Of a stretch of 34,193 bases of DNA, positions 6,807 through 27,118 are shown piece after piece; positions within the stretch are counted from its first letter, which is position 1; every line of letters starts with the position of its first letter. A program made the translations under genes and the position numbers. Under the pieces are notes generated by a model that saw only the letters and a program-made list of their open reading frames with translations, was not told the DNA's origin and made no database searches. The DNA is from Candidatus Zipacnadia bacterium (GTDB taxonomy: Bacteria > Armatimonadota > Zipacnadia > Zipacnadales > UBA5352), in NCBI GenBank assembly GCA_029820295.1, contig JALGVA010000042.1:1-34193 (forward strand), read 5' to 3'.

Positions 6807-7961
6807 ATGACCTCGCGAGAGCGCGTGCTGACCGCTCTGAGCCATTCTGAGCCCGACCGGGTGCCCTTCGACCTGGGCACCACCTTCGTGACCGGCATCC
6901 ACCGCATCGCCTACGACCGGCTGGTGCAGGCGCTGGGGCTGGCGGACCTCGAACCGCTGCCACTGTACGACCCGGTCCAGCAGCTCGCCATGCCTCACGA
7001 GGAGGTGCTGCGCGAGCTGGGCGTAGATACGCGCAGCGTCTCCCTGAAGCTCCCCGGACGCGCCGCGAGCGACTCCGAAGAGGACGAGGAGTACCTCTAC
7101 GCGACCGACGAGTGGGGCCTCAAGCGGCGCATGCCGAAGGATGGCGGCCTCTACTATGACATGTACGCCCACCCGCTGGCCGGCGTCGAGACCGTGACCG
7201 GCGTGGATGCCTACGCCTGGCCCGACCCGCTGGCATCGCTGGACCTCGACGCCATCGAGGACGCCTGCCGGGCGATCAAGTCCTCGGGCGACTACCCGGT
7301 GATCGTGGGCGGCTTCGGCTCGGGGATGCTCGAGATGGTGCTGTGGTTGCAGGGCTACGACCAGGGCTACATGAACCTGCTGGTCAACCGGCCGGTGACC
7401 GAGGCGATCCTCGACCACGTGACGCGGCTGAAGGTGGTCTACGCCGACGCCCTGCTTCAGCGCGTGGGCCCGTATGTCGATATCTTCTACAACGGGGACG
7501 ACCTGGGCCTGCAGGACGGGCCGATGATCCGCCGCGAGTGGTTCATCGAGCTGCTGGCGCCGCGCTACGTGCAGTATCACGAGGCAATCAGGCGCGGGGC
7601 GCCGCAGGCGAAGCTGTTCTTCCACACCTGCGGCTCGGTGGTGGATCTGCTGCCCGACGTTATCGAAACCGGCATCGACATCCTGAACCCGGTGCAGGTC
7701 AACGCCGCGGGGATGGGCGACACCGCCGCGCTCAAGCGCGACTTCGGCGACGCCATCAGCTTCTGGGGCGCCATCGACACCCAGCGGGTGCTGCCGCGGG
7801 GCACGCCGGCGGAGGTGCGCGACGAAGTGCGTCGGCGCATCGACGACCTGGCGCCCGGCGGCGGCTACGTGCTCAACCCATCGCACAACATCCAGGCGGA
7901 TGTGCCGGCCGAGAACGTCCTGGCGATGGTTGAGGCGCTCGACGAGTTCGGGTGGTACTGA
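6807..7961 (+). CDS. URO-D family protein, methyltransferase-like
   Basis: A 384-aa member of the uroporphyrinogen decarboxylase superfamily. It opens with the typical MTSRERVLTALSHSEPDRVP. The start ATG at 6807 has GGAGG 6 nt upstream; the in-frame ATG at 6765 lies inside the predicted -10 box and is rejected. It carries HTC (His273, Cys275), the H-x-C zinc motif of corrinoid/coenzyme M methyltransferases such as MtbA. At the position where I expect their last cysteine, the sequence reads NPSHNIQ (His360). Known: this branch includes cobalamin-dependent methyltransferases and many uncharacterised proteins, distinct from haem-pathway HemE. Inference: a zinc-dependent methyl-transfer role of unknown substrate. 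It has its own promoter. A second, more divergent member lies at 22600. Confidence 0.8.
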   Translation: MTSRERVLTALSHSEPDRVPFDLGTTFVTGIHRIAYDRLVQALGLADLEPLPLYDPVQQLAMPHEEVLRELGVDTRSVSLKLPGRAASDSEEDEEYLYATDEWGLKRRMPKDGGLYYDMYAHPLAGVETVTGVDAYAWPDPLASLDLDAIEDACRAIKSSGDYPVIVGGFGSGMLEMVLWLQGYDQGYMNLLVNRPVTEAILDHVTRLKVVYADALLQRVGPYVDIFYNGDDLGLQDGPMIRREWFIELLAPRYVQYHEAIRRGAPQAKLFFHTCGSVVDLLPDVIETGIDILNPVQVNAAGMGDTAALKRDFGDAISFWGAIDTQRVLPRGTPAEVRDEVRRRIDDLAPGGGYVLNPSHNIQADVPAENVLAMVEALDEFGWY

Positions 7962-10376: not shown

Positions 10377-12302
10377 TCAGAACCACACCGGCAGCTTGTT
10401 GAAGCCCTCGCCGCCGAAGCTGGCAATGAGCGCCCAGACGGTGCCCGACCAGAAGTAGTGGCCCACCACCACGCCGATGAAGAAGGGCAGCAGGCGGTTG
10501 TACAGGCGCATGCCGCCCAGGCGCAGCACGATGGTCTTGATGATGAGCGAGAGCAGGAGCATGGCCCAGCCGATGCTGCCGCCGCCGGTGAGCGCCATCA
10601 CGAAGCCGCTGGGGTGCAGGGGGAACTGCAGGAAGAGGCGGCGCAGGACGGCCAGCAGGATGACCACGGCGGCGCCTACCGCGAAGGCGATTGAGGGGTT
10701 GCGCTGCGGGTCGGCAGGGCCGCGCATCCACGAGGCGAGCTGGTCGTAGGCCTGAGTCATCAGCGCGACGCGGGTGCCGCCCTGGGTGGTGCCGCCCTCG
10801 AGCACGTTCGAGCCCAGCTCGTAGGCGGTGCTGATGTGCATCCACCAGCTTACCGCAGAGCCCAGGATCACCGCCCAGATCATCAGGGAGGCGATCTGCT
10901 TGCGATCGACCTTGATCTCACCACCGATGCGCAGCGCCTCGGCCTGGTAGGCGACCAGTTGGGCGAAGTAGCCGCGGTACATCCAGTTCTGCACCTCGAG
11001 CCCCGCCAGGCTGCTGAAGTTGCCGCCCGCCGCCAGGCGCTCGGTGCCGAAAAAGTTGATGACCATGTCCCGCTCCTGGTTGAGGGGCTTGATCCACCAG
11101 GTGGGGAAGCCGGTCTCGGCGCGGATGCGCATGTAGCCGATGCTGTGGCTGAGCAGGAGGATGAGGTAGACCAGCAGGATCCACAGCTTCATGCCGAAGA
11201 TCAGCCAGAAGCCCAGGACCACGGCGGTGCTGACGATGAAGCCGATGGCCAGCCAGGGCGTCTCGCCGCCCCTGCCGCCCAGCGCGGCGAAGACCTGGAC
11301 GATGCGGTGGCGCGCGCCGTAGATGAGTACCAGCGCAAGCGCCACGAAGCCGCCCATGGCCTGCGGGTAGTCGAAGGGGTATCCGGGGATGTCTACGCCC
11401 ATCATGGCCCCACCCAGGGCGAGGCCCTTGAAGTAGCCGAAGTAGAGAATCAACGTGGAGGCGACGATGTCACTGGGCATCATGTAGGCGATGCCGAAGA
11501 TCTCCGGGCGGTACTCGATGGTCAGCGGCTGCAGCGCCGTCAGGGGGTGCTCGACGAACAACGGCGACAGCGGGGTACTCAGGCCCAGGGCGGGAATGGC
11601 GGGGTTGAAGGCGTTGAAGATGTTGAACAGGTGGTAGAGGCCGACGATGAGCACGCCCGACCAGAAGATGGGATTGGTCCATACGCCGTGGAGGGTCTTC
11701 TGGCGGAAGCCGGCGAGCATGAGCGGGAACTCGGCCATGGGGTAGGCGAGGTGCTCGCCCTCCTCCCAGATGGGGCGGAAGACCATGGCGATGCACAGCA
11801 GCAGGCCGTAGAAGCCGACGAAGAATGCCAGCCAGATGGCCAGCGGCTGGAGCCACGCGCCCCAGGGGACGGCCGTGAACCAGGCACTGATGCCGCCGGT
11901 GGGCAGGTCGGTGCCCTCGAAGTACTGGCGGATCACCTCATCACCGTGCGGCACCGCCCAATCGGGGATGAACTTGTGGAACTGCGCCCAGCGGTTCTCG
12001 GCCGAGGCGAAGTAGTAGGGGGTGACCAGGGCGGGCAGGAAGAAGCGCATGGCGGCACCGGAGGTGAGGGCGACGGCGAGGGTCAGGAAGGCGTAGACGC
12101 CCAGGATTTCCCTGCGGCCGAAGCCGACCCGGCGCAGCACGCGCAGGCCCGCGAGGAGCACGAGGAGGGTCACCAGGGCGGGCACCGGCGGCACCGCCAT
12201 GGCCACCTGGGCGGCGAGGGTCAGCAGCGCGCCCTGGCGCACCCACAGGTTCGCCAGCACGAGGAAGATCAGCCCGACCAGCAGCACGCGTCCTGTCCGC
12301 AC
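10377..12302 (-). CDS. Polytopic membrane protein, DUF6785/DUF6784-like (paralogue A)
   Basis: A 641-aa integral membrane protein with a dozen or more hydrophobic segments. I recognise it, from memory of the family, as DUF6785 (N-terminal) plus DUF6784 (C-terminal). The start is the GTG at 12302, because VRTGRVLLVG aligns with the start of paralogue B and GGAAGGGA lies 9 nt upstream; an in-frame GTG at 12338 is less likely. Conserved blocks shared with paralogue B include LVLANLWVRQGAL, AMRFFLPAL, RAETG with WIKPL, GTERLA, LEGGTT, LRxGGMRLYNRLLPFF and GGEGFNK. No ATPase or protease motif is seen. Inference: a transporter-like protein in an operon of glycan-related enzymes. It is the last gene of the operon, 199 nt after B, and is followed by a heptad repeat tract. 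Confidence 0.75.
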   Translation of the reverse strand: MRTGRVLLVGLIFLVLANLWVRQGALLTLAAQVAMAVPPVPALVTLLVLLAGLRVLRRVGFGRREILGVYAFLTLAVALTSGAAMRFFLPALVTPYYFASAENRWAQFHKFIPDWAVPHGDEVIRQYFEGTDLPTGGISAWFTAVPWGAWLQPLAIWLAFFVGFYGLLLCIAMVFRPIWEEGEHLAYPMAEFPLMLAGFRQKTLHGVWTNPIFWSGVLIVGLYHLFNIFNAFNPAIPALGLSTPLSPLFVEHPLTALQPLTIEYRPEIFGIAYMMPSDIVASTLILYFGYFKGLALGGAMMGVDIPGYPFDYPQAMGGFVALALVLIYGARHRIVQVFAALGGRGGETPWLAIGFIVSTAVVLGFWLIFGMKLWILLVYLILLLSHSIGYMRIRAETGFPTWWIKPLNQERDMVINFFGTERLAAGGNFSSLAGLEVQNWMYRGYFAQLVAYQAEALRIGGEIKVDRKQIASLMIWAVILGSAVSWWMHISTAYELGSNVLEGGTTQGGTRVALMTQAYDQLASWMRGPADPQRNPSIAFAVGAAVVILLAVLRRLFLQFPLHPSGFVMALTGGGSIGWAMLLLSLIIKTIVLRLGGMRLYNRLLPFFIGVVVGHYFWSGTVWALIASFGGEGFNKLPVWF

Positions 12303-12458
12303 AGTGTCTGGTCCCTTCCACGTCGGGTTGTCACACACGCGCCCCCGTCACGCCGGCAGGCCGGCGGCCTGCCCCACGGTCCGCCCCCAGCCCCCGCGGT
12401 TGCCGCCCCCGCTGCCCCATCCCGGGGCCGTCCCCGCAGTTGCCGTTCCCGCCGTCGC

Positions 12459-12493
12459 CGTTCCCGATGCCCCATCCCCCATGCCCACTGCCC
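12459..12493. repeat. Five-unit degenerate heptad tract after paralogue B
   Basis: Read on the minus strand, 12493 to 12459 is GGGCAGT, GGGCATG, GGGGATG, GGGCATC, GGGAACG: five units in 7-bp phase with consensus GGGNANN. It lies 8 nt past the TGA at 12502-12504. It resembles the tract after paralogue A in unit length, strand, composition and position. The rest of 12303-12458 is GC-rich with more out-of-phase GGGNA-type pieces. Confidence 0.75.
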
Positions 12494-12501
12494 TGCCGTT
12501 C

Positions 12502-14400
12502 TCAGAACCATACCGGGTACTTGTTGAACCCCTCGCCGCCGTAGCTGGCGATGAGGCTCCATACCGTTCCGGCCGCGAAGAAGTGCCCGACGATCGCACC
12601 CAGGAAGAACGGCAGCAGCCGATTATACAGTCTCATGCCGCCGATGCGAAGGGCGATCTGCTTTATGATGGTGCACACCAACAGCGCGGCCCAGCCGTTC
12701 TCACCCGCGCCGGTGAGGGCGAAGACGTAGCCCATCGGGTGCAGCGGGAAGGAGATGAACAGCCGGCGCAGGGCTGCGAGCACGATGACCAGCCCCGCAC
12801 CCGCGGAAGCCGCGATGGCCTGCGGGCGGTTGGGGGCGGCCGGCCCGCGCATCCAGCCGGCGAGGGCCTCGTAGGCGTTGACGGTGAGCGCGACGCGCTG
12901 GCCGCCGCTGGTGGTGCCGCCCTCGAGGATGTTCGCGCCGTAGACGTAGGCGGTGTCGATGTGCATCCACCAGCTCACCAGCGAGCCGAGGACCACCGCC
13001 ACCACCATGAGCACGATCATGCGGCGCAGGTCCACTGTGATCTCGCGCGCCATCCTGAACGCTTCGAGCGGGAAGGCGGCGAGTTGGGGGAGGTAGCCGC
13101 GCGACAGGAAGTGCTGCACGGTCAGCAGTGTGAGCGAGCGGAAGTTGCCGCCCGGCGCGAGGCGCTCGGTGCCCAGGAGGGAGATCAGGATCTGGCGCTC
13201 CTGGTCGAGCGGCTTGATCCAGTGGTGCGGGTAGCCGGTCTCGGCGCGGGCGCGCAGGTAGGTGATCGCCGAAGACAGGATCAGGCCGTAGTACGCGAGG
13301 ATGACCCACCAGCTCATCCCGGCGAGTGCCCAGAAACCGTAGACCACGAGGGCGCTGGCGATGAGCAGGAGGGGCAGCCACCGCGAGCCATCGCCGCGGC
13401 CGGCCAGGCGCGCGAAGACCGCGCGGATGCGGTGCCGCGCGCCATAGATGACCACCGCGGTCATGCCCACCATCGAGCCCATGCTCTGCTGGCGGTAGTA
13501 GGGGAACTGCGGGAGCTGCAGGCCGCGCACCGCGCCGAACAGCGCCAGGCCCTTGAGGTAGACGAAGTAGAACAGGAGCGTCGAGATGACGATGTCGCCG
13601 GGCATCATGTAGGCCATGCCGAAGATGAGCGGGCGGTAGCGGAAGACCAGCGGGCGCAGGGCGGTGAGGGGGTGTTCGTTGAGCAGGTTGTTCAGGTTGG
13701 TCTCCAGCCCGAGCGCGGTGACCGCCGGGTTGAAGGCGTTGAGGATGTTGAACAGGTTGTGCAGGCAGATGAGGGCGAAGCCGGTCCAGAACAGGCCGTT
13801 GGTCCACAGCCCGTGCAGCGTGTCGCGCCTGTAGCCGGCGAGCATGACCGGCAGTTCGGCCATGGGGTAGGCGAGGTGCTCGCTCTGCTCCCAGACCGGA
13901 CGGAAGACCAGGGCGATGCACATGAGCAGGCCGTAGAGCGCGACGAAGAAGGCGAGCCAGGCGGCCAGCGGCCCGGCCCAGGCGTCCCAGGGCACGGGCG
14001 CGCCGTCGGAGCCCTCGAAGTACCGGCGGATGACCTCGTCGCCCTGCGGCACCATCCAGGTGGGGATGTACCGGAAGAACTCCGCCCAGCGGTTCTCGGT
14101 TGAGGCGAAGTAGTACGGTGTGGACAGGGCGGGCAGGAAGAAGCGCATGGCGGCGCCGGAGGTGAGCGCGACCGCGAGGGTGAGGAAGGCGTAGACGCCG
14201 ATGACGTCCTCGCGGCTGATGCCGATGCGGCGCAGCAGGCCCAGCGCACCGAGCAGAACGAGCAGCGCCGCCAGCGCGGGTACCGGCGGCACCGCCATGG
14301 CGACCTGGGCGGCCAGAGTGATGAGCGCGCCCTGGCGAACCCACAGGTTCGCCAGGACAAGCAGCACGAAGCCGATCAGCAGGATTCTGCCGAGGCGCAA
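12502..14400 (-). CDS. Polytopic membrane protein, DUF6785/DUF6784-like (paralogue B)
   Basis: A 632-aa paralogue of the downstream gene, alignable by eye end to end. It starts at TTG 14400, supported by GAGGAGG 7 nt upstream and by alignment with A. The first 40 residues form a membrane segment and LANLWVRQGALITLAAQVAM, nearly identical in A. The central YRPLIFGMAYMMPGDIV, ARAETGYPHHWIKPLDQER and GTERLAPGGNF blocks are retained, as is the C-terminal FPLHPMGY to GGEGFNKYPVWF region. Conservation of charged and aromatic residues inside an otherwise hydrophobic protein suggests a transport or catalytic site rather than simple anchoring. Substrate unknown. It lies 106 nt after the lipoprotein gene in the same direction. 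Confidence 0.75.
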   Translation of the reverse strand: MRLGRILLIGFVLLVLANLWVRQGALITLAAQVAMAVPPVPALAALLVLLGALGLLRRIGISREDVIGVYAFLTLAVALTSGAAMRFFLPALSTPYYFASTENRWAEFFRYIPTWMVPQGDEVIRRYFEGSDGAPVPWDAWAGPLAAWLAFFVALYGLLMCIALVFRPVWEQSEHLAYPMAELPVMLAGYRRDTLHGLWTNGLFWTGFALICLHNLFNILNAFNPAVTALGLETNLNNLLNEHPLTALRPLVFRYRPLIFGMAYMMPGDIVISTLLFYFVYLKGLALFGAVRGLQLPQFPYYRQQSMGSMVGMTAVVIYGARHRIRAVFARLAGRGDGSRWLPLLLIASALVVYGFWALAGMSWWVILAYYGLILSSAITYLRARAETGYPHHWIKPLDQERQILISLLGTERLAPGGNFRSLTLLTVQHFLSRGYLPQLAAFPLEAFRMAREITVDLRRMIVLMVVAVVLGSLVSWWMHIDTAYVYGANILEGGTTSGGQRVALTVNAYEALAGWMRGPAAPNRPQAIAASAGAGLVIVLAALRRLFISFPLHPMGYVFALTGAGENGWAALLVCTIIKQIALRIGGMRLYNRLLPFFLGAIVGHFFAAGTVWSLIASYGGEGFNKYPVWF

Positions 14401-14506
14401 CCACCGGCCTCCTCAGCGCCGGCGCACGTGGCGCCGACCGGGGGCATGCCCAACAGCCGATGGGTTCGCCCCGGTGCGGCGCGGGGCCTCCTGCGGGCGG
14501 CGCAAG

Positions 14507-15736
14507 CTACGCGCCGGGCGTGGCGTCGTCACCGCCGGGCGGCGTGGGTGGCTCGGGACCATTGCCGGGAGGCAGCGGCACCGGCGGCGGCCCCGACCCC
14601 GGCAGTCCGTCGCCCCACGGCTCCAGCGTGAAGCTCTTCGTCACCGTCTCGCCCGGCAGGATGGTGATCTCCTCCCACGCGGGCTCCCAGCCCTCGATCC
14701 ACACCTCGATCGTGGACCATCCCGACGGCGCGTTGAGCCGGTAGGCGCCCTGCGCGTCGGTGAGCGTGCTTACCGACGCGATGCAGGGCGGGCAGATCAT
14801 GTCCGGGTCGGGAGGGATGCGCCCCGGCTCGCCGTCCACGCCCTCACCATCGCCCTCGCTGCCGCCCGCCTCATCGGCGGCGCGCACGGGCATGTCCTCG
14901 CATATCTCCGGCGGCCCGATCGGCTCCCAGGGCGCCTCGCCCATGATGGTCACACGCGCGCCCACGAGCGGCACGCGTTCACCCTCGCCCGCCCCCAGCA
15001 CGCGGCCGCGGACCGTGCCCACCCCCGGCTCAATCTCCGGGCGCAGCTCGAAATCGGCGACCGCCGTGCGGCCCGCGGCCACCCACACCCACTGCCAGGC
15101 GCCGCGCATCTCGGGCTGGGCCACGGTGACCACGTACTCGCCCTCGGGCACCGCGCGCAGGATGAACGAGCCGTTCTCATCGGTGAAGGTGCTGAAGGCC
15201 GGCAGGTCATCGGGCGGAGGCCGGAGGTCCGGGTTCCGGATGGGAGCCGTGCCCGGTTCGGTCTCATCGCCGGTGCCGTCCTCCACCATCGCGATGACGT
15301 AGGCGGGCTGTGCCGCGACCTCGACGCCCACGAGCGCGCGCACTCCGTCCTCGGCGCGCACGGTCACGATGCCGACGATCTGCCCGCCCAGCTCGGGCAC
15401 GATCTCCGGCGCCCGCGCGCGGCGGCCCGCGACCACCTCGACGGAGGCGTGGCCGCCGGTCATTCCGTCGGGCCCGACCACCGTGATGCTGTGCCGGCCC
15501 GGCGCGACGCCCTCGATGCGGTAGCTGCCGTCAGACTGCAGGCCGCCCGGGACCGGCCGCCCGTCGAGCAGCAGCTCGTAGTCGCCGGGGGCGCCGGCGA
15601 CATCAACCTGGCCCTCGATGGCGGCGGGGTCCGGGTCCGGGGGGACGGGCGTGGTGTCGCCGCCGCAGCCGATCAGGACGACGGCCCCCACAACGACCAG
15701 TGAGATGAGCAACGCCACACGACCGCGCCGGCACAT
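14507..15736 (-). CDS. Lipoprotein with carboxypeptidase-regulatory-like repeats
   Basis: A 409-aa predicted lipoprotein. The N-terminus has two arginines, a hydrophobic stretch and a lipobox LIGC (Cys24). Three beta-sandwich modules of the carboxypeptidase-regulatory/CNA-B type can be seen at about residues 40-90, 115-215 and 242-355. Their signature strands are SDGSYRIEGVAPG, DENGSFILRAVPEGEY and DAQGAYRLNAPSG. An acidic insert (about 285-320) interrupts the third, and the last 40 residues are Pro/Gly-rich. The ATG at 15736 has GAGGAGG 9 nt upstream. Known: such modules are binding or spacer domains of surface proteins and give no enzyme activity. It lies 14 nt after the EF-Tu-like gene, so it probably shares its mRNA. 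Inference: surface glycan or protein binding. Confidence 0.8.
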   Translation of the reverse strand: MCRRGRVALLISLVVVGAVVLIGCGGDTTPVPPDPDPAAIEGQVDVAGAPGDYELLLDGRPVPGGLQSDGSYRIEGVAPGRHSITVVGPDGMTGGHASVEVVAGRRARAPEIVPELGGQIVGIVTVRAEDGVRALVGVEVAAQPAYVIAMVEDGTGDETEPGTAPIRNPDLRPPPDDLPAFSTFTDENGSFILRAVPEGEYVVTVAQPEMRGAWQWVWVAAGRTAVADFELRPEIEPGVGTVRGRVLGAGEGERVPLVGARVTIMGEAPWEPIGPPEICEDMPVRAADEAGGSEGDGEGVDGEPGRIPPDPDMICPPCIASVSTLTDAQGAYRLNAPSGWSTIEVWIEGWEPAWEEITILPGETVTKSFTLEPWGDGLPGSGPPPVPLPPGNGPEPPTPPGGDDATPGA

Positions 15737-15750
15737 CCTCTTCAGCCTCC

Positions 15751-16080
15751 TCAGCAGTCCGTATCACGCGGATTGGGGACGATCGGCGGCAGCGGCGGAG
15801 CCTCGTCCACCCGCCCCGGCGGCAGCTTCACCACCGCGTCGCCCGGCCGCACCCGGTTGATCACCGGCACCCAGACCTTCTGGGCTGACTTCCCCCGCTT
15901 GACCTTCTCTCGCGCGAGCTTGATCTCGCGCACGATCTGTCTGAAATCGGTGTCCGGGCCGACGATCTGCACGCGGTCGCCCACGCGCAGCGACAACTCC
16001 AGCTCGATCAGGGCGCGCATGAAGCGCCAGTCGAACTCGGCCACGTTCCCGATCTTGATACCGGTGACCTGGAAACCCAT
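15751..16080 (-). CDS. EF-Tu domain-2-like beta-barrel protein
   Basis: A 109-aa protein that I recognise as a stand-alone relative of translation-factor domain 2. LRVGDRVQIVGPDTDFRQIV (31-50) and RVRPGDAVVKL (76-86) match the pattern LKVGDxIxIxGxTTDFxQxV ... VRxGDxVYKV. That pattern occurs in small EF-Tu-like proteins of archaea and bacteria and at the C-terminus of U32 peptidases. The ATG at 16080 lies 4 nt after the TGA of the deacetylase gene, so translation is probably coupled; longer upstream extensions overlap that gene and are rejected. The tail (87-109) is Pro-rich and ends in cysteine. There is no GTPase domain. Its role in a glycan-enzyme operon is unknown; RNA or protein binding is possible. 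Confidence 0.7.
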   Translation of the reverse strand: MGFQVTGIKIGNVAEFDWRFMRALIELELSLRVGDRVQIVGPDTDFRQIVREIKLAREKVKRGKSAQKVWVPVINRVRPGDAVVKLPPGRVDEAPPLPPIVPNPRDTDC

Positions 16081-16084
16081 GGCC

Positions 16085-16912
16085 TCAGACCTCACCCTCC
16101 GCGGCCCCGCGCTCTTCGCAGTACTCCCGGTAGAGCCCGACCCGCACGCCCAGCTCGCGCGCACGCTCGATGAGCCGGCGCACCACAACCATCTCCGGGT
16201 CCCAGCGCATCGTGGTGGTGTCATGTTGATTATACACGAATGCCCAGTCATTCGCCGCGATTACGTCAAGCTGTCCGGCCACATATTGCGCGTAGTCGGC
16301 CACGTTGTCGAAGGCGCGCGGCTCGAAGCCCAGGCGATTGCCCCAGTCGCAGTCGTGTCGGCCGGTGAGCGGGAACTCCATGATGTCCCCGAAGCCCTGC
16401 GCCACGTAGCGAAATGGCTGGCGGCTCAGCGGCACCGGCACCCAGTCCTGCTCGTTGCGCATCCAACTGCGCACGAAGCGGATGCCGTTGCCGTGCAGGA
16501 TCGCCAGCAGCTCGGGCCGGTCGCCCAGGCCGCGGTAGTAGCCCCAGGGCGTGGTCAGGCCGATGACCTCCATGCCCAGCAGCTCGCGGATGATCGTCTG
16601 CGCGCGATCGACCTCACGCGCGATCTCCTCGACCGAGCCGCCGGGGATGATGCGCTCGCCCTCGTCGTTGACCTGCCAGAGCGTCTTGAAGAGCACGTGC
16701 GACCAGGTGTGCTGGCCGTAGTCGAAGAGACCATCGGCCATGGTGGCGCGGATGGCCTCGACATTATGCTCGAGCGTCTGGCCGCACAGGAACAGCGTCC
16801 CCGGCGCGTCATGCTCACCATGCGCGCGCCGCAGGGCGTCGATGAACTGACGGGTCACGGGGGAATCGGGTTCCCCGGACTCGACATCGTATCCGAGCAG
16901 CAGCCAGGACAT
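16085..16912 (-). CDS. NodB-like polysaccharide deacetylase family protein
   Basis: A 275-aa cytoplasmic-looking protein (no signal peptide) of carbohydrate esterase family 4 type. The first motif is YDVES (Asp9, normally the general base or metal ligand). The second is QHTWSH (His68, His72), the H-x3-H metal-binding pair. The third is TTPWGYYRG (120-128), a variant of the usual R-x-P-x-G. A late His230 in YNQHDT may be the fourth conserved position. Start ATG at 16912, GGAGG 8 nt upstream. Known: members remove N- or O-acetyl groups from sugars with a divalent metal. Because motif 3 lacks the leading Arg and the enzyme is apparently intracellular, its substrate is uncertain. It lies 54 nt after the amidohydrolase gene. 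Confidence 0.75.
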   Translation of the reverse strand: MSWLLLGYDVESGEPDSPVTRQFIDALRRAHGEHDAPGTLFLCGQTLEHNVEAIRATMADGLFDYGQHTWSHVLFKTLWQVNDEGERIIPGGSVEEIAREVDRAQTIIRELLGMEVIGLTTPWGYYRGLGDRPELLAILHGNGIRFVRSWMRNEQDWVPVPLSRQPFRYVAQGFGDIMEFPLTGRHDCDWGNRLGFEPRAFDNVADYAQYVAGQLDVIAANDWAFVYNQHDTTTMRWDPEMVVVRRLIERARELGVRVGLYREYCEERGAAEGEV

Positions 16913-16966
16913 GCCAGCGACCTCCGTTTGCGGCTGCGCCCTTCGCCGGCCGCCTTGCGCCGCCGC

Positions 16967-17740
16967 CTACTCCGTCGCCATCAGTCGCTGCGCCGCGCCG
17001 TGCCAGACGCTGGCGCGCAGGTCGTCATCGGCGTCCATAGCGTTGAGCATTTCCTCGTAGGCGTCGGCCATCATCACCGGGTCCGAGGTGTCCGAGCAGA
17101 AGCACAGCCGCCGCGAGACACGCTGCCAGACCTCCTCGCCCCAGCCCAGGAACAGCTCGCGCAGGAACGCGGTCGAGCGCTTGAGGATCACGCTGGACAG
17201 ATCCCAGTAGAGGTTGTCCCAGTAGGCGAGCATCATCCACGCCTCCTCGTACCAGGGCTGGCCGAGGTGGGGCATGAGGATCTTCAGGCTCGGGCAGTAG
17301 CGCAGCGGCAGGTCGAGCATCACCGGCCTCATGCGGCCCATGAGCACATCGTGCCCGGCCTCGCCGCGCAGTCGCCCGAGGATGCCGCAGTGGATGTTGC
17401 AGGGCATGCCGAGCGCTTCGGCGCGTCGGTAGATTGGCAGCAGCGAGGGGTCGTCGTAGGGCACCCGGGGGATGATCATCTTCAACGCCTCGAAGCCCAG
17501 GGCGTGCAGGTGATCGACCTTCTCGGGGCCGTCGATGCCGAGCTTCACGTAGCCGAAGCCGATGATGCGCTCGGGATAGAGAGCCCGCGCACGGATGACG
17601 CCCTCGTTGTCGAACTGGCCGAAGAGCGGCCCGCAGGTGGACATGCCGACCTTCTCGATGCCGACGGACGCGGCGCGGTCCATGTACTGCTCGAGATCGC
17701 CCTCGTCGCGGCTGTAATGGCGGTGGATGTCGATGAGCAT
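16967..17740 (-). CDS. TIM-barrel amidohydrolase (amidohydrolase-2 type)
   Basis: A 257-aa metal-dependent hydrolase. The first strand carries D-I-H-R-H (His6, His8), the paired metal ligands. Further candidate ligands are NIHCG (His117), MPHLG (His158) and FCSDTSD (Asp217), in the order expected for the family. Known relatives include decarboxylases and lactonases acting on small carboxylated or cyclic substrates. The ATG at 17740 has GAGGTGA 8 nt upstream. It is the first gene of the minus-strand operon and diverges from the large secreted protein gene across a 139-bp region with a perfect inverted repeat. Inference: it may open a lactone or decarboxylate a sugar-derived acid. The exact reaction cannot be read from the sequence. 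Confidence 0.75.
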   Translation of the reverse strand: MLIDIHRHYSRDEGDLEQYMDRAASVGIEKVGMSTCGPLFGQFDNEGVIRARALYPERIIGFGYVKLGIDGPEKVDHLHALGFEALKMIIPRVPYDDPSLLPIYRRAEALGMPCNIHCGILGRLRGEAGHDVLMGRMRPVMLDLPLRYCPSLKILMPHLGQPWYEEAWMMLAYWDNLYWDLSSVILKRSTAFLRELFLGWGEEVWQRVSRRLCFCSDTSDPVMMADAYEEMLNAMDADDDLRASVWHGAAQRLMATE

Positions 17741-17791
17741 GGTCGAATCACCTCAACCCCTTCCGTGGTGCAGAGCACCTTCGTCCGCACC

Positions 17792-17825
17792 GACCCGTGC
17801 ACCTGCCGTGGCAGGTGCACGGGTC
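17792..17825. promoter_or_regulatory. Perfect 16-bp inverted repeat in divergent promoter region
   Basis: GACCCGTGCACCTGCC (17792-17807) and GGCAGGTGCACGGGTC (17810-17825) are exact reverse complements with only GT between them. The element sits in the middle of the 139-bp region between divergent start codons at 17740 and 17880. It may be an operator for a dimeric regulator controlling both units, or a hairpin in both leaders. It is too close to both genes to end an incoming transcript. Confidence 0.65.
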
Positions 17826-17879
17826 AGGCGAATCGAAGGGGGACGCGCACTCGTCCCAGTCATGTCGGAGGTGGTCCGG

Positions 17880-20800
17880 ATGTCCTGCCCGTGGAAGCTG
17901 CTTGCGCCGATTGCCGTCGCGTCGCTGCTTGCGCTGGGCGCGTTGAGCCAGCCTGCGTCCGCACAGGAGAACCTGCTCAGCAACCCCGGCTTCGAGGAGG
18001 TCGGCGACGACGGGCTCCCCGTCGGCTGGGCCCGTTACGGCGGCGGGGTGCCCGAGAGCGTGCTGGAGATGACCGAGGACGCGCACTCGGGCGAGCGCGC
18101 GGTACGGCTGCTCGACACCGGCCCTGAGGAGCGCGACCAGCGCTATGCCATCGGGGTTACGCAGAACGTGCCCATCGAGGGCGGGAAGGCCTACATCCTC
18201 TCGGTGTGGGCGAAGGCCATCGCGCGCAACCATGACCAGGCCATGAACCTGCAACTGCGCTTCATGCCCGGCAACCGGCTGACCAACGTGACGGTCACGC
18301 CGCCCATCGGCGGGGACTGGGAGCGCGCCGTGGTGGCGGGACAGGCGCCCGAGGACGCCACCAGCGCCACCATCTACATCTACACCCAGCATTACTGGAC
18401 CACCGAGACGCTGATCGACGATGCCTCGCTGATCGTGGTGGACCGCGAGACCTTCGGACCGCGTTTCCCGCTGGCCGCGCACGGCTCCATGGGCATCGAG
18501 ACGGTGCGGCCGCTGAACCTGCGCACGCCCATCGTCGAGGGCGGGCAGCCGGCTGCGATCATCGCCGTGCCCATCGATGTTACCGGCGCCCTGGATGAGC
18601 AGTACGCCGCGCTTGCCGAGCGGCTGGCGGCGGGCGTCGAGGCCCGGACCGGCGTGCGCCTGGAGACCACGACCGACGCCAGGTCGCTGGTCGGCGGCGA
18701 CCGGACCATCATCGCCCTGGGCAACCTGAACAACAACTTCGTGGTCGAGCGGCTCTATATGAACAAGTACCTGGAGATCGACGCCCTCAAGCCCGGCGCG
18801 GGGCGCTACGTGCTGCAGACGGTGCATGAGCCCTACAACTGGCCGACCGGCGTCAACATTGTGGTCGTGGGGGCCTCGGACCTCGATGGCCTGAGCGCGG
18901 GCGTCGATGCGCTGCTCGAGCGCGTGCCGCAGGGCAATGAGTGGGTGCTGGCCGAGCCGCTGCTGGAGGTCTCCGGCGCCGAGCCCATGAGCGACGAGCG
19001 CGCGCAGGAACTGCTGGACTCGCCGGTGAGCCAGGACGTGACGCGCGACTTCTGGATGGCGGCGCAGCGGTATCGCGACACGGGCGACCTGGCGTGGGCC
19101 CGGCGCGCCAAGCGCATTCTGCTGGTCGAGGCCGCGGAACGCTTCGACACCGACCCGCACTTCCACATCACCTGGCCGGAGGAGACCACCTCCAACATGA
19201 TCGGCGCCATGTGGGATGTGCTGGAGGAGGCGCCGGTGTGGACCGATGAGGAGCGGCTGGCGGCGACCAACGTAATCCTGAATGCGCTCTACGTGCTGCC
19301 CGCGCGCACCTCGGGCTACGGAGGGCTGGAGAGCAACGACGGCATCATCTGGAACCACACCACCTTCCCGCTGCTGGGGATCTACTGGATGGCGCGTTAC
19401 TTCGAGCGCTTCTATGGCAACGTGGACGGCCAGATGGCGCTGATGCTGCGCAAGTGCGCTGCGTGCTTCCTCAACCAGGTCAAGTGCTGGAAGCCGCAGG
19501 AGGACTCGGCGGGCTACGAGGCCATCGTGCCGCGCCACACCATCGAATACACGCTGGCTGAGAACAACTACAGCTTCTTCGAGAACGGGAATGTGCTGCG
19601 CATCGCCGAGTACGAGGTGGCGATCTGCGACAACACCGGCGACGTGGCGGGCTTCGGCGACTCGGGCTACGGGCACGGGGTCTACACCGCCAACCAGCAC
19701 TGGCCGCTGTTCTACTACCGCGACGGCCGCTTCCTGTGGTGGCTGCAGCGCGTGCGCGAAGGGGGCTACGCCAGCCCCTACGACCCATCGATCGAGCCGG
19801 TCGAGTGGCGGGGCCTGGTGGGCGCCAACGTCTTCCGCCTGCACCCGGAGGTCTACCGCTATACCACCGAGCACGCCGACTACGGCGGTGAGCCCACCCC
19901 GCCCAACATCCCGCTGGAGCAGTGTTTCGACAAGATCGCCTTCCGCGAGAGCCTGGACATGGACGCCGAGTACTTCCTGCTCGACGGCTTCTCGCGCGGC
20001 AAGCACCTGCAGTACGACGGCAACTGCATCATCAAGTTCTTCGCCGACGGCCAGGACTGGCTGATCGACGGCGACTACCTGGTGCGCAACACCACCGACC
20101 ACAACGGCGTGAGCGTCATCCGCGGCGGGCGCGTCGCCGAGCTGATCCCGTCGTGCGTGTCGCTCGAATCGCTGGCGGACCTGCCGGGCATGACCATGTG
20201 CGAGACCGCGGTGTATGACTTCAACGGCGTGGACTGGCTGCGCAACATCATCTGGCTGCAGGGCGAGTTCGTGCTGGTGATCGACCGCCTGCGCGCCAAC
20301 GAGGCCGACGACTACACCTTCGTGGGCAACTGGAAGATGCTGGCCGAGGGCGAGCAGACGCTGGAAGATGGCCGGATCATGAGCACCGTGCGGCAGACCA
20401 TCGGCGGCGCGGGGAACCGCGAGCTGACGGTGATGCCCAACCCGGCCGAGGGCGTCGAGCGCGCGGTCAAGTTCGTCTCGCAGGTCTCGCAGCTCGACAC
20501 CGCGCTGGAGCTGCCCGCGGGCAACCTGGAGCTGACGCTGTTCGCTCAGGGCGTCAGCTCGGGCGCCGACAGCTTCTACGTCTCGGTCGACGCGGGCGAG
20601 CGAATCCCGTTCCACATCCCGGTGGGCAACTTCGGCCCATCGTCGGCGACCTGGGAGAAGGACACGCCCACGCCCAACATCGAGATCCCCGAGGCGGGCG
20701 TGCACCGCATCACCATCACACTACGCGAGGGCCCCGGTCCGCTGCTGGACCGCATGGTGTTCCGCGACGCCGAGGGCAACACGGTCGCGCAGATCGAGGC

Positions 20801-22562
20801 CGAGGACGCGCCGGCACTGCCCGAGGGCATGATCGAGCGCGCGCCCGATCAGCGCTTCCGCATCATCGCCGACGGTCAGGCGCAAAGCAAGCTCACCGGG
20901 CGCATCAACCACGTCGGTCGGGCGATCGCCTACATGCGCCAGCGCCTGGGCGGGAACCTGGAGACGGGGGAGCAGCGCGCCTTCCAGACGCTGTTCTACA
21001 ACGACACCGAGGTGGAGGCCAAGGAGTATGACCTGCGCCGGGTGAGCGACGAGGCCGTGGTTGTCATGCGCAACGGCGAGCCGTGGATGGTCGTCGCCGT
21101 CGGCGATGAGGCGCGGCTGGGCGGGCAGGGGCGCATGAAGATGGTGGCGTTCACGCGCGACAGCATCTGGGCCGCGGACGTGACCGACTTCCGTGGCGAG
21201 ATCTACGCGGAGCAGCCGTTCAGCGGCTCGCTCACCGGCGACCCGCCCTACATGACCATCGTGGGACCCGAGGACCTGACCACGGTGATCCTGGGTGGGA
21301 TGCCGCTGATGCTGCAGGGCGGGCGGCTGGAGATGGACCTGGCGGGCTTCGGTGAAGTGACCGCGGGCACTGTCGAGTTGCAGCGGATGTTCGATGCCTT
21401 CGTGGCGCGCGCCGCGGCCGCCGGTGGGCCCGCTGCCGCCGCCGCGACCGGCCCCGAGGCCCCGGCGATCGGCGCCGAGCGCTCGATCCCGGTCCCGGTC
21501 GCCGAGGACACGGCGCACCAGCCGATCGAGAAGCTCGAAGCCATCGACCTCGATGGCGACGGGACACAGGAGCTGATCGTGCTGCGCGGGCGCGAGGCCC
21601 ACGCCATGACCGCGGCGGGCGAGGTCCGCTGGAGCTACGAGGTCGGCGGCACCACGCGCTGCGCGGTCGCCGGTGACATCGACGGCGACGGGGCGCTGGA
21701 GGTGCTCATCGGCTCCGATGACGAGCACATCCACGTGCTGGATGCCGCGACCGGCGCGGTCGAGCGTACTCATCACTGCGACCTGCCGCTACGCGTCGGT
21801 ACCTCGAGTGTGCGCCAGCCGCGGGTGGGCGCGCTGGCGGTGGCCGACCTCGACGGTGACGGTCGCCTCGACATCGTCGCCGGGCTGATGAACGGCAACA
21901 TCGCGCGCTACGACACCGACTTCAACCTGATCTGGCGCTACAACCGCCAGGAGCACGGGACGCTGGAGTTCGACGTACGCGACCTGGACGGTGATGGGCG
22001 GCTGGAGATCTCGGCGGCGAACCGCTACGGCGCGGTGAAGATCTTCGACGCCGACGGCCGCGCCGTCGGGCGCACCTACTCGGAGCTGGGCGACGTGCAG
22101 ATGGCGGTGGGCGATCTCGATGCCGACGGCGTCTATGAGGTCGCCAACGGCTCGTCCACCGGCGCGTTCTCGTGCGACGTCTGGAGCGGGGGGAACCGCT
22201 TCACCTTCCCCAACTACGGCTTCGCCTTCACCGAGGTGCTCATGGGCGACCTGCTCGCCGACCGCCCGGGCGACGAGCTGCTCGCGGCCTCCGAGACCGG
22301 CTACGTCTACGTCCTGGGCGCGGAGGGCGAGGTGCTGGCGCAGCGCGACTTCGGTGACGCGGTCAATGATATCGTGCTGCTGCCCCGTGAGGGCGCGCCG
22401 CTGATTGGCGTAGCCTGCGACAACGGGCGTGTCTACCTGATGGATGCGCAGATGGAGCTGCCGGGCGCGCTCGACGCCGGCGCTCGCCCGCTGCTGGTGC
22501 AGGCGCTGGGCGAGCGGCTGGTGGCGGCCACCGCCGACACCGTGCATGTCATTGTGCCCTAG
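17880..22562 (+). CDS. Giant secreted heparinase-like polysaccharide-degrading protein with FG-GAP repeats
   Basis: A 1560-aa exported protein. The ATG at 17880 has GGAGG 8 nt upstream and opens a signal peptide ending near QPASAQ; longer in-frame starts (17727, 17862) lack this fit. About 30-190 is a CBM4/9-type module (LLSNPGFEE...GWARYG). About 220-370 resembles the alpha/beta domain preceding catalytic parts of some glycosidases. About 375-650 is likely an alpha/alpha toroid, and about 715-840 a heparinase II/III-type beta-sandwich (DHNGVSVIRGGRVAEL). A second carbohydrate-binding-like sandwich lies near 890-960. An Ala/Pro linker (about 1174-1200) leads to a C-terminal propeller with five D-x-D-x-D-G calcium motifs, four of them DLDGDG or DIDGDG. 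Catalytic residues cannot be assigned with confidence. Inference: a polysaccharide lyase or hydrolase. Confidence 0.75.
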   Translation: MSCPWKLLAPIAVASLLALGALSQPASAQENLLSNPGFEEVGDDGLPVGWARYGGGVPESVLEMTEDAHSGERAVRLLDTGPEERDQRYAIGVTQNVPIEGGKAYILSVWAKAIARNHDQAMNLQLRFMPGNRLTNVTVTPPIGGDWERAVVAGQAPEDATSATIYIYTQHYWTTETLIDDASLIVVDRETFGPRFPLAAHGSMGIETVRPLNLRTPIVEGGQPAAIIAVPIDVTGALDEQYAALAERLAAGVEARTGVRLETTTDARSLVGGDRTIIALGNLNNNFVVERLYMNKYLEIDALKPGAGRYVLQTVHEPYNWPTGVNIVVVGASDLDGLSAGVDALLERVPQGNEWVLAEPLLEVSGAEPMSDERAQELLDSPVSQDVTRDFWMAAQRYRDTGDLAWARRAKRILLVEAAERFDTDPHFHITWPEETTSNMIGAMWDVLEEAPVWTDEERLAATNVILNALYVLPARTSGYGGLESNDGIIWNHTTFPLLGIYWMARYFERFYGNVDGQMALMLRKCAACFLNQVKCWKPQEDSAGYEAIVPRHTIEYTLAENNYSFFENGNVLRIAEYEVAICDNTGDVAGFGDSGYGHGVYTANQHWPLFYYRDGRFLWWLQRVREGGYASPYDPSIEPVEWRGLVGANVFRLHPEVYRYTTEHADYGGEPTPPNIPLEQCFDKIAFRESLDMDAEYFLLDGFSRGKHLQYDGNCIIKFFADGQDWLIDGDYLVRNTTDHNGVSVIRGGRVAELIPSCVSLESLADLPGMTMCETAVYDFNGVDWLRNIIWLQGEFVLVIDRLRANEADDYTFVGNWKMLAEGEQTLEDGRIMSTVRQTIGGAGNRELTVMPNPAEGVERAVKFVSQVSQLDTALELPAGNLELTLFAQGVSSGADSFYVSVDAGERIPFHIPVGNFGPSSATWEKDTPTPNIEIPEAGVHRITITLREGPGPLLDRMVFRDAEGNTVAQIEAEDAPALPEGMIERAPDQRFRIIADGQAQSKLTGRINHVGRAIAYMRQRLGGNLETGEQRAFQTLFYNDTEVEAKEYDLRRVSDEAVVVMRNGEPWMVVAVGDEARLGGQGRMKMVAFTRDSIWAADVTDFRGEIYAEQPFSGSLTGDPPYMTIVGPEDLTTVILGGMPLMLQGGRLEMDLAGFGEVTAGTVELQRMFDAFVARAAAAGGPAAAAATGPEAPAIGAERSIPVPVAEDTAHQPIEKLEAIDLDGDGTQELIVLRGREAHAMTAAGEVRWSYEVGGTTRCAVAGDIDGDGALEVLIGSDDEHIHVLDAATGAVERTHHCDLPLRVGTSSVRQPRVGALAVADLDGDGRLDIVAGLMNGNIARYDTDFNLIWRYNRQEHGTLEFDVRDLDGDGRLEISAANRYGAVKIFDADGRAVGRTYSELGDVQMAVGDLDADGVYEVANGSSTGAFSCDVWSGGNRFTFPNYGFAFTEVLMGDLLADRPGDELLAASETGYVYVLGAEGEVLAQRDFGDAVNDIVLLPREGAPLIGVACDNGRVYLMDAQMELPGALDAGARPLLVQALGERLVAATADTVHVIVP

Positions 22563-22599
22563 CCGCGAGTCGGCCCCCGGGCCGCCGGAGTGATCGAGC

Positions 22600-23676
22600 A
22601 TGACCAACCAGGAACGCGTCATGGCTGCCCTGAACTTCGAGCAGCCGGACTACATCCCGATGTACATGAGCTTCTGGCCCGAGTTCACCGCCATCTGGGA
22701 GCAGGCTCATCCCGAGGCGCAGGTCTCGATCGACGACTATTATGATGTAGCGGTGAAGGTCATCGTCGGCGATGAGACGCCCTACATGACCAAGGCGGGC
22801 ACGCTGCGCGAGGAGAGCGGCTACGAGATCCGGCGCGACGGCTGGGGACGCACCATACGCGTGAGGCCCGACGCGTACTTCATGCACCAGATCGACAGCG
22901 CGTACGATGCCCACGGCCGGCTGAAGTATGGCGAGTTCGACCCGCCCGACCTCCCGGAGCGCTACGCGCGGTACGACCGCATGATGGACCGGCTCAAGGA
23001 GCAGTACTGCGTCTTCGCCAAGACCGGCGGACCGTTCATCCGCACCTACTTCATGACCGGCGAGGCCGAGCTGCTCACGAACATGGCCGGCGATCCGAAG
23101 CTGGCTGCCGAGCAGGTCATGCGCACCGCACATCACCTGACCGCCATCGGGCTGGAGGAGCTGCATCGCTGGAAGCTCTATGACACCGGCATGTGGATCT
23201 CCGACGACATGGCCGGCACTGTGGGGCCGATGTTCAGCCCCGGCACCGCCGAGAAGATCATGGCGCCGGCGTGGGCCTTCATGGTCGAGAGCTTCAAGGC
23301 CGCGGGCGCATCCAGGGTCATCATCGACAGCGACGGCAATGTCGGCCCGCTGCTGGAGCTGTTCATCGACCTGGGCTTCGATGCCATCTACCCGGTCGAA
23401 TACAAATCCGGGCTCGACTGCGTGGAGCTGCGCGAGCGCTTCGGAGACAGGCTGGCCTTCTTCGGCGGGCTCTCAAACGGACTGATCCTGCCCCGGGGCG
23501 ATCCGGAGGAGATTGTCGATCACACGCTGCGCATCATGTCGGCGGGGCGGGACGGCGGGCTTGTGCTGGGCACGCACTCCGTCGGCCACGACATCTCCCT
23601 CGATGCGTGGGACCTGTGCTTCGAGACGTGCATGAAGTACCGCACCTACCCGCTCAACCTGCCGGAGGGCTACTGA
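22600..23676 (+). CDS. URO-D-like protein lacking the zinc motif
   Basis: A 358-aa uroporphyrinogen-decarboxylase-superfamily protein. It opens with MTNQERVMAALNFEQPDYIP, and its ending THSVGHDIS aligns with the corresponding region of the protein at 6807. At the H-x-C zinc site it reads DSDGN (Asp243, Ser244, Asp245), so the thiol and imidazole ligands are replaced by aspartates. The FFGGLSNGLILPRG block, equivalent to FWGAIDTQRVLPRG in the other protein, is kept. The ATG at 22600 has GGAG 9 nt upstream. It starts 37 nt after the giant secreted protein and probably shares its transcript. Inference: it does not perform zinc-thiolate methyl transfer. A lyase/decarboxylase-type or binding role is possible. 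It is not HemE: the residue context differs and there are no haem neighbours. Confidence 0.75.
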   Translation: MTNQERVMAALNFEQPDYIPMYMSFWPEFTAIWEQAHPEAQVSIDDYYDVAVKVIVGDETPYMTKAGTLREESGYEIRRDGWGRTIRVRPDAYFMHQIDSAYDAHGRLKYGEFDPPDLPERYARYDRMMDRLKEQYCVFAKTGGPFIRTYFMTGEAELLTNMAGDPKLAAEQVMRTAHHLTAIGLEELHRWKLYDTGMWISDDMAGTVGPMFSPGTAEKIMAPAWAFMVESFKAAGASRVIIDSDGNVGPLLELFIDLGFDAIYPVEYKSGLDCVELRERFGDRLAFFGGLSNGLILPRGDPEEIVDHTLRIMSAGRDGGLVLGTHSVGHDISLDAWDLCFETCMKYRTYPLNLPEGY

Positions 23677-24968: not shown

Positions 24969-25793
24969 ATGATCAAGTCCATCAGCTTCTGGTCGTTCCC
25001 GGACGGGATGACCATTCGCGAGCGCATGACGATGGCGAAGCAGTACGGCTTCGAGGCGATCGAGCTGACCCTGGAGGCCGAGGGCGAGATCACCGAGGCC
25101 AGCAGCGCGGCCGACATGGCGCAGTTCGTGGACATGGCGGGCGAGATCGGGCTCAAGCTGCCCACCTTCGCCACCGGCCTGGCGTGGCAGTGGCCCGCGT
25201 GCGGCCCCGACCCGGAGGTCACCGCGCGGGGCATCGACATCGTGAAGAAGTCGCTCGAGCTGGCCGCCGCTGTGGGGGCGAAGACCGCGCTGTGCGTGCC
25301 CTGCACGGTCACCGCCGACTACCCCTACGACCGGGCCTACGCCGACTGCGTCGAGACCTTCACCGCGCTGGCGGATGATGCGGCCGCCGCGCAGGTCCAC
25401 ATCGGCCTGGAGTACGTGTGGAACAAGTTCCTGCTCAGCCCGCTGGAGTTCGCCCGGATCATCGACGAGATCGGCAGCGAGTGGGTGCAGGCCTACTTCG
25501 ACGTGGGCAACGTAGTCCCCAACGGCTTCCCCGACCAGTGGATCCGCATCCTGGGCGACCGCATCAAGGCCGTGCACTTCAAGGACTTCCGCGAGAGCAT
25601 CGGCACCGGGACGTTCGACGGCTTCGTGGACCTGCTCGAGGGCGACGTGCCCTGGGGGCCGGTCATGGACGCGCTCGGCGAGATCGGCTATGACGGCGCG
25701 GTGACCGCCGAGATGATGCCGCCCTACCCCTACCATCCCGAGCGCCTGATCGAGGCGACCAGCCGGTCGATGGACGCCATCCTCGGTCGCTGA
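24969..25793 (+). CDS. Sugar phosphate isomerase/epimerase family (AP-endonuclease-2 TIM barrel)
   Basis: A 274-aa TIM-barrel protein of the xylose-isomerase-like superfamily. The expected metal-binding residues are all present: Glu148 (GLEYVWN), Asp178 (YFDVGN), His203 (VHFKD) and Glu248 (TAEMMPP). The start ATG at 24969 has GGAGGGA immediately upstream. Known: the family includes tagatose/psicose epimerases, hydroxypyruvate isomerase and inosose dehydratase, so sequence alone does not fix the substrate. It is the first gene of a three-gene operon with a DUF4177-like protein and a Gfo/Idh/MocA oxidoreductase, a pairing common in inositol and unusual-sugar catabolism. Inference: it isomerises or epimerises a ketose or keto-inositol that the oxidoreductase makes or uses. 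Confidence 0.85.
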   Translation: MIKSISFWSFPDGMTIRERMTMAKQYGFEAIELTLEAEGEITEASSAADMAQFVDMAGEIGLKLPTFATGLAWQWPACGPDPEVTARGIDIVKKSLELAAAVGAKTALCVPCTVTADYPYDRAYADCVETFTALADDAAAAQVHIGLEYVWNKFLLSPLEFARIIDEIGSEWVQAYFDVGNVVPNGFPDQWIRILGDRIKAVHFKDFRESIGTGTFDGFVDLLEGDVPWGPVMDALGEIGYDGAVTAEMMPPYPYHPERLIEATSRSMDAILGR

Positions 25794-26101: not shown

Positions 26102-27118
26102 ATGGACAGGCTGCTGATCGGACTCATTGGCGCAGGGAACATGGGCAAGGCGCTCGCGCGCGGCGTGGCTGCATGTGACGGGGGGCGCATCGTGGCGGTC
26201 GCCGATCCGGCCGGGGACGCCGCGCAGGCGGCGGCGGAGGAGATCGCAGGTGAGGGCGGGAGCATCGACGCCTACACCAACGTGGCCGAGATGCTGGCGC
26301 GCGAGGACATCGCGGCGGCCATCGTGGCCGCGCCCAACTACCTGCACCCGACGCTCACCCGCCAGGCCGCCGAGGCGGGCAAGCACGTGTTCTGCGAGAA
26401 GCCCATGGCGCTGAACGTGGCCGACGCGCGCGCGATGATCGCGGCGTGCGAGGCGGCGGGCGTGAAGCTGATGATCGGCCAGGTGCTGCGCTACAACGCG
26501 CCCTACGTGTGGATGATCGACCAGATCCGCGGCGGCGACTACGGCGAGCCCTTCGGCATGCAGGTCACGCGTATCGCCGGGCCGTGGGGCGGGGTCTACG
26601 GGCAGACCTGGCGGATGAAGAAGGAGCTGTCGGGCGGGCCGCTGTTCGAGGTCAACGCGCACGAGATCGACTTCATGCGCCAGGTGCTGGGCGAGGCGCA
26701 GACGGTCTACGCGTCGATGGACAACTACGTCAACCCGGACGCCGATTACGAGGACTTCGTGCACGTGGTCATCAACTTCGCGGGCGGCGGGCGCGGCGCG
26801 CTGCTGGCCGGCCACGCCTCGCACCTGGGCAGCTACGACGGCAAGATCTTCTGCACCAACGGCACCTTGCTGTTCGACAACAAGACCGGCAACGTGACCT
26901 GCAAGGTCGGCGACGATGAGCCGCAGACCATCCCGTACGGCGACACCGGTCGGGGCTACGAGCGCGGCGTGGACCGTGAGGTGCGCGAGTTCATCGAGGC
27001 GGTGCTCGATGACGCCGAGGTGACCATCCCGGGCATCGAGGGCCTGCGCAACACGGAGATTGCGCAGGCGGCGCAGATCTCGGCGGCCTCGAACCGCGTG
27101 GTGGAGCTGCCGTTGTAG
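26102..27118 (+). CDS. Gfo/Idh/MocA family oxidoreductase
   Basis: A 338-aa NAD(P)-dependent dehydrogenase. The Rossmann motif is GLIGAGNMG (7-15) and the family's catalytic EKP is in CEKPMAL (Glu99, Lys100, Pro101). GGPLFEVNAHEIDFMRQ supplies the conserved His of the C-terminal sheet domain. Start ATG at 26102 with GGAGG upstream; an open frame continues to 25826 but overlaps the small DUF4177-like gene and lacks a better start. Known: members oxidise or reduce sugars, inositols and their acids. It is the last gene of the isomerase operon. Its stop codon is followed by a short heptad tract and a large nested hairpin. Substrate undetermined. Confidence 0.9.
   Translation: MDRLLIGLIGAGNMGKALARGVAACDGGRIVAVADPAGDAAQAAAEEIAGEGGSIDAYTNVAEMLAREDIAAAIVAAPNYLHPTLTRQAAEAGKHVFCEKPMALNVADARAMIAACEAAGVKLMIGQVLRYNAPYVWMIDQIRGGDYGEPFGMQVTRIAGPWGGVYGQTWRMKKELSGGPLFEVNAHEIDFMRQVLGEAQTVYASMDNYVNPDADYEDFVHVVINFAGGGRGALLAGHASHLGSYDGKIFCTNGTLLFDNKTGNVTCKVGDDEPQTIPYGDTGRGYERGVDREVREFIEAVLDDAEVTIPGIEGLRNTEIAQAAQISAASNRVVELPL

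Follow-up and report, generated by a model that had tools for sequence, protein, structure and literature searches.

How might the products of a secreted heparinase-like protein enter the cell when no familiar importer is encoded beside it? This question is raised by a 34,193 bp stretch of DNA (the window; contig JALGVA010000042.1) from an Armatimonadota metagenome-assembled genome among the Candidatus Zipacnadia/WS1 relatives, 5.63 Mb in size and 98.6% complete. Two divergent units lie here on either side of a 139 bp gap, one encoding a 1560-aa heparinase II/III-like protein, and the other encoding putative processing enzymes together with two membrane proteins of the Pfam families DUF6785 and DUF6784. 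Genes were identified from an open reading frame (ORF) listing and by a dicodon gene caller for which 769 kb of this genome served as training data, and the two agree with the units, gap and gene positions given in a preliminary description of this DNA; Pfam agrees with its naming of the membrane pair, a deacetylase, an amidohydrolase and a URO-D protein. The genes called in the window include no SusC/SusD, ABC or MFS importer, as had also been noted, and the membrane proteins had been proposed as transporter-like. This proposal holds: proteins of the DUF6785/DUF6784 type form a divergent branch of the oligopeptide transporter (OPT) superfamily, the two DUFs jointly making up one transporter domain.

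Both membrane proteins pass the Pfam cut-offs for DUF6785 and DUF6784 (25 and 26.4). Paralogue A (10377..12302, complementary strand) scores 312 and 77 bits, paralogue B (12502..14400, complementary strand) scores 323 and 77 bits, and the two are 65% identical. The ORF of paralogue A is open from a GTG at 12338, and the GTG at 12302 is the start that aligns with paralogue B. An AlphaFold2 model of paralogue B, built from a 72-sequence alignment, had a predicted local distance difference test (pLDDT) value of 93.8 and a predicted template modelling score of 0.92. Using Foldseek against 350,542 PDB chains, the sole significant matches to this model were 7wst and 7wsr, barley Yellow Stripe 1 (YS1), with an E-value of 9e-8 and TM-scores of 0.66 by query and 0.69 by target. 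The remaining PDB matches, other transporter folds included, had TM-scores of about 0.1, and a viral fold library searched as a negative control contained no comparable match, with TM-scores of about 0.1 throughout.

Remote sequence similarity leads to the same superfamily. The Pfam OPT model matched 25 stretches across 201 Armatimonadota genomes, and 12 ORFs recovered around OPT-matching stretches fit the DUF6785 profile with E-values of 1e-60 or less (one was 5e-60). At L180 (loci and genomes in our comparison are given by L and G numbers) a single protein matches DUF6785 with 532 bits, DUF6784 with 107 bits and OPT with 35.6 bits (cut-off 25.8), the OPT match spanning the DUF6785/DUF6784 junction, and at L186 the OPT match is collinear and almost full length, yet below the cut-off. 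Using hhalign, a 102-member DUF6785 alignment matched seven OPT sequences with E-values of 6.8e-5 (local) and 5.9e-6 (global), in register over almost the whole chain, while a reversed OPT alignment used as a control gave 0.5. A lone OPT sequence compared to the DUF6785 alignment was not significant and did not outscore an unrelated membrane protein; a sequence search of the PDB found no DUF6785 relative. Since the fold match and the OPT profile similarity agree, we assign the family to the OPT superfamily. Three OPT-related Armatimonadota proteins lacking a DUF6785 match (L185, L188 and L197) may represent an additional OPT-like branch, and two of these (L188 and L197) match no Pfam family at an E-value of 0.01 or below by hmmscan.

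The window proteins resemble the OPT/YSL branch, represented by YS1, in whole-chain fold, in-register remote similarity, a length of about 630 aa and many transmembrane helices. They differ from it in being only about 14% identical, in being divided by Pfam into two DUFs, and in falling below the OPT cut-off; in addition, DUF6785 occurs in tens of copies per genome, and is linked here with polysaccharide enzymes rather than chelates. YS1 is an OPT-family proton symporter that acts as an importer, and is a proton-coupled elevator homodimer (PMC9691689). By analogy, DUF6785 proteins may use a proton-coupled elevator mechanism of the same type. No paper naming DUF6785 or DUF6784 was found by literature search, although databases beyond our reach may record an OPT link. 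Recognition of the OPT relationship gives a Pfam family of unknown function a testable molecular role.

The genome that contains the window encodes 34 DUF6785 proteins, and of 291 Armatimonadota genomes examined, 206 have at least one; first-look candidates number up to about 48 in a single genome, and none was found in 14 control genomes. The family is thus a massively expanded as well as a divergent branch of the OPT superfamily. Other importers are few. The TonB plug domain (PF07715) is absent from the genome but was detected in E. coli, Caulobacter and Bacteroides controls, and there are only six BPD_transp_1 permeases, corresponding to about three ABC importers; in two members of the same family, G265 and G270, the permeases number nine and two. 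Across 21 chosen genomes, for many of which the DUF6785 numbers are first-look candidate counts, the densities (per Mb) of DUF6785 genes and of ABC permeases were negatively correlated with kinship ignored (Spearman -0.49, p 0.02), and a two-group split of the same relation was weaker (p 0.09). As MFS and other carriers lie outside this count, the role of main importer is put forward for DUF6785 as a hypothesis. A member of the same phylum with a similar carbohydrate-scavenging lifestyle, the isolate Chthonomonas calidirosea, has been reported to carry an abundance of carbohydrate ABC transporters (PMC4959169), whereas ABC permeases are few and DUF6785 genes many in the present lineage.

The preliminary description had suggested a survey for the same neighbourhood elsewhere, and the divergent arrangement of the heparinase-like gene and the amidohydrolase/EF-Tu-like/DUF6785 genes was found to be kept in two other genera (three with the host), with identities of 57-80%. 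In L094/L174 the heparinase-like gene (67% identity) is divergent from amidohydrolase, deacetylase, EF-Tu-like and DUF6785 genes; in L170 (57%) it is divergent from amidohydrolase, EF-Tu-like, lipoprotein and DUF6785 genes, followed by two further amidohydrolases. L091 has the amidohydrolase, deacetylase, EF-Tu-like, lipoprotein and DUF6785 genes with the heparinase-like gene missing, and L093 and L173 have subsets of the locus genes. Roughly ten DUF6785 orthologues with an identity of 50% or more lie on informative contigs. Six of these (the window, L094, L170, L093, L095 and L097) have a heparinase-family gene no more than five genes away; by our own estimate from a 3/230 background, such proximity would be expected for about 12% of random genes. 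The heparinases of L093, L095 and L097 have no BLAST match to the 1560-aa protein, and so look independent. Other carbohydrate-related neighbours of the orthologues are beta-helix proteins (L092, L098 and, weakly, L172) and GH123 (L095/L171), so homologues of the membrane proteins do occur beside carbohydrate enzymes elsewhere.

Two parts of the locus as originally drawn were not retained. The membrane proteins had been treated as a functional pair, but relatives carry a single DUF6785 gene compared with two in the window, and the idea of the tandem pair as an obligate heteromer was dropped for this reason; a tree places the duplication before the split of these genera, at a deep node that is poorly supported. 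The URO-D-like gene (22600..23676, forward strand; Pfam URO-D), which starts 37 bp downstream of the 1560-aa gene, was dropped from the unit as it is absent from L094 and L170, both syntenic loci having the heparinase-like gene. A sugar isomerase/epimerase-like TIM barrel gene (24969..25793, forward strand) and a Gfo/Idh/MocA oxidoreductase gene (26102..27118, forward strand) are kept beside the heparinase-like gene in L170.

The 1560-aa protein (17880..22562, forward strand) begins with a signal peptide and a CBM_4_9-like region just under the cut-off (residues 31-170), followed by a lyase-like core and a C-terminal propeller of the FG-GAP/lambda-carrageenase type. It has no Pfam match to PF07940 or PF16889, and only one of 11 family members matches, weakly (E 0.002). 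An iterative profile seeded on the L097 protein, a canonical heparinase II/III with Hepar_II_III_N and _C domains, nevertheless reached residues 380-834 (19017..20381, forward strand) in the third search with an E-value of 2.2e-6 prior to inclusion, and four homologues were independently reached in the same way. The heparinase-like label, although unseen by Pfam, is thereby borne out for the core. The protein is like the heparinase II/III-like lyases (PF16889/PF07940) in this core homology and in its WL-D-Y and HN motifs, and differs from them in its additional CBM_4_9-like N-terminus and FG-GAP propeller C-terminus, in having HxQxD at the HxHxD site, and in lying under the Pfam cut-offs. An AlphaFold2 model of the core had a pLDDT of 41.8, with few homologues available, and was not used for a fold search.

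We propose with moderate confidence that the locus is a cluster for depolymerising, importing and processing a polysaccharide. Outside the inner membrane, the secreted 1560-aa protein would bind and cut an acidic polysaccharide that contains amino sugars, and the OPT-fold proteins would then bring the resulting fragments in by a proton-coupled elevator mechanism, much as YS1 does with its chelate. The deacetylase-fold and amidohydrolase proteins would process the imported fragments in the cytoplasm, the lipoprotein and the small barrel protein may have accessory roles, and a palindrome in the 139 bp gap is a likely site of common regulation. Both the direction of transport and the cargo, taken to be glycan fragments at this locus and peptides at others, are read from context. 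In encoding an enzyme, a surface lipoprotein and a transporter together, the locus resembles a Bacteroidota polysaccharide utilization locus, but it has no SusC, SusD or TonB, the genome has no TonB plug, and the transporter is of a secondary-carrier fold. The glycan-scavenging role first suggested for the locus is thus supported in part, by the transporter fold, the scarcity of other importers and the conserved divergence, and not in respect of the pair as a unit, the URO-D gene or a general association with carbohydrate genes.

Several observations weigh against this proposal. At the HxHxD-motif site, located by alignment of family members (20004..20018, forward strand), the second His is replaced by Gln (HLQYD) in the window protein and its L094 and L170 orthologues; the motif is intact in six of the other aligned members, and because of the replacement lyase activity may be altered or lost at this locus. 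The genome encodes about 20 members of the 1560-aa family, mostly away from DUF6785. Neither window membrane protein has a Pfam OPT (PF03169) match at an E-value of 0.001 or below, and the OPT assignment is based on fold and profile similarity, not on mapped OPT substrate-site or proton-site residues. To our knowledge, known OPT proteins carry peptides and metal chelates, not sugars. Heparinases are only modestly enriched among the immediate neighbours of DUF6785 in the genome (4/59 versus 3/230 background, p=0.03), and PF07940 within 5 kb of DUF6785 is near chance, with four cases compared to about 2.3 expected by our own estimate; G254 has two compared to about 1.5 expected, and G192 has none. 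Several DUF6785 orthogroups sit with peptidases. A general rule joining heparinases to DUF6785 was rejected because this co-location by coordinates is near chance, and the broader carbohydrate rule implied by the preliminary description fails on the modest association and on the orthogroups tied to peptidases. Proteins of at least 900 aa are, however, enriched beside DUF6785 in the same genome (11/57 immediate neighbours versus 12/230, p 0.0015).

Two peptidase contexts recur among other DUF6785 orthogroups. In 17 loci, a fusion of an M28 peptidase with an FtsX/MacB-type permease, about 1600 aa long, is encoded directly downstream of a DUF6785 orthogroup on the same strand; the DUF6785-M28/FtsX context is seen at L043:4708-11596 and 18 other loci. 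About nine loci have an operon of TldD, TldE, DUF6785 and a nucleoside/MTA phosphorylase-like gene, with TldD/TldE upstream (for example L039:121-5776), which is a peptide-type context for an OPT-fold protein. Given such fixed partners, the DUF6785 family seems to be an OPT expansion in which the context determines the cargo.

It follows from the peptidase-linked orthogroups that the cargo at this locus could be a peptide or glycopeptide, and glycan fragments are our best guess with peptides as the main rival. The OPT-fold pair might import small peptides, glycopeptides or peptide-like metal chelates, with the lyase-like protein merely loosening the matrix that holds them. OPT relatives are generally known to carry oligopeptides and chelates, and the M28/FtsX (17 loci) and TldD/TldE (nine) partnerships point the same way, but the operon itself has no peptidase and the close orthologues of the pair adjoin heparinase, beta-helix and GH123 genes, so that we regard this explanation as rather unlikely. 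It also seems improbable that the DUF6785 proteins export envelope or capsule material or flip its precursors, with the heparinase-like and deacetylase genes remodelling the cell's own polysaccharide. Deacetylase and lyase-like enzymes are generally known to act in envelope remodelling too, and a PGA_cap gene lies near one relative (L098); against this, the structurally matched transporter is an importer, the neighbours of the 34 copies are diverse and catabolic, with Gfo/Idh and sugar-isomerase genes among them, and there is hardly any other importer class among those searched.

Finally, the two divergent units could be neighbours with no functional connection, as would fit the near-chance co-location of DUF6785 with heparinases or the 1560-aa family by coordinates genome-wide and the presence in L091 of the operon without a heparinase-like gene. 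The divergent arrangement at 57-80% identity in three genera, the recurrence of non-orthologous heparinases beside close DUF6785 orthologues and the conserved palindrome core in the shared gap make such a coincidence very unlikely. Returning to the import of glycan fragments, if this holds true at the locus, OPT-type transport extends from peptides and metal chelates to a new class of cargo. A wider possibility, which we put forward tentatively, is that DUF6785/DUF6784 proteins are an unrecognised OPT-superfamily branch through which a whole bacterial lineage mainly takes up organic nutrients, in place of ABC and SusCD importers; the adjoining secreted enzyme would then determine whether a paralogue serves for oligosaccharides or for peptides. 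Uncultured Zipacnadia are abundant in anoxic sediments (PMC10290634), and the term 'oligopeptide' does not occur in the Zipacnadia paper. As the usual importers are nearly absent, carbon uptake in these bacteria is unexplained at present, and DUF6785 is a candidate for it.

The 139 bp divergent control region (17741..17879), defined by the gene calls and aligned across three genomes, contains a perfect 34 bp palindrome with 16 bp arms and a 2 bp centre (17792..17825), the core of which, ACCTGCC-GT-GGCAGGT, is kept in L094/L174. The genome contains similar palindromes at other places, and this one is therefore no more than a candidate operator. Scans for sigma-70 promoters and terminators were at chance level, and an Rfam search found no family. 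On the complementary strand, the operon's first gene (16967..17740) encodes an Amidohydro_2 hydrolase (Pfam 7.8e-12) with the HxH motif present, and is kept in L091, L094 and L170. It is followed by a polysaccharide-deacetylase-fold protein with no signal peptide (16085..16912, complementary strand; Polysacc_deac_1, 1.2e-9), kept in L091, L094 and L173 and missing in L170. The next gene (15751..16080, complementary strand), kept in L091, L094 and L170, encodes a 109-aa small beta-barrel protein; the gene itself was confirmed, and its earlier EF-Tu (domain 2) label is weakly backed, by beta-barrel similarity and a NusG KOW-like PDB match (E=0.01) with no Pfam match. The lipoprotein (14507..15736, complementary strand), has the lipobox LIGC and CarboxypepD_reg repeats recognised by Pfam, and its gene adjoins DUF6785 on the upstream side in four other loci.

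The URO-D-like protein at 22600..23676 lacks the HxC motif that is present (FHTCG) in a second URO-D protein of the window (6807-7961), which is kept beside an alpha-glucan phosphorylase (8269-10032) in L091. A further perfect palindrome, with 15 bp arms, is found at 1593-1623 of the window in a terminator-like position just past a bactofilin gene.

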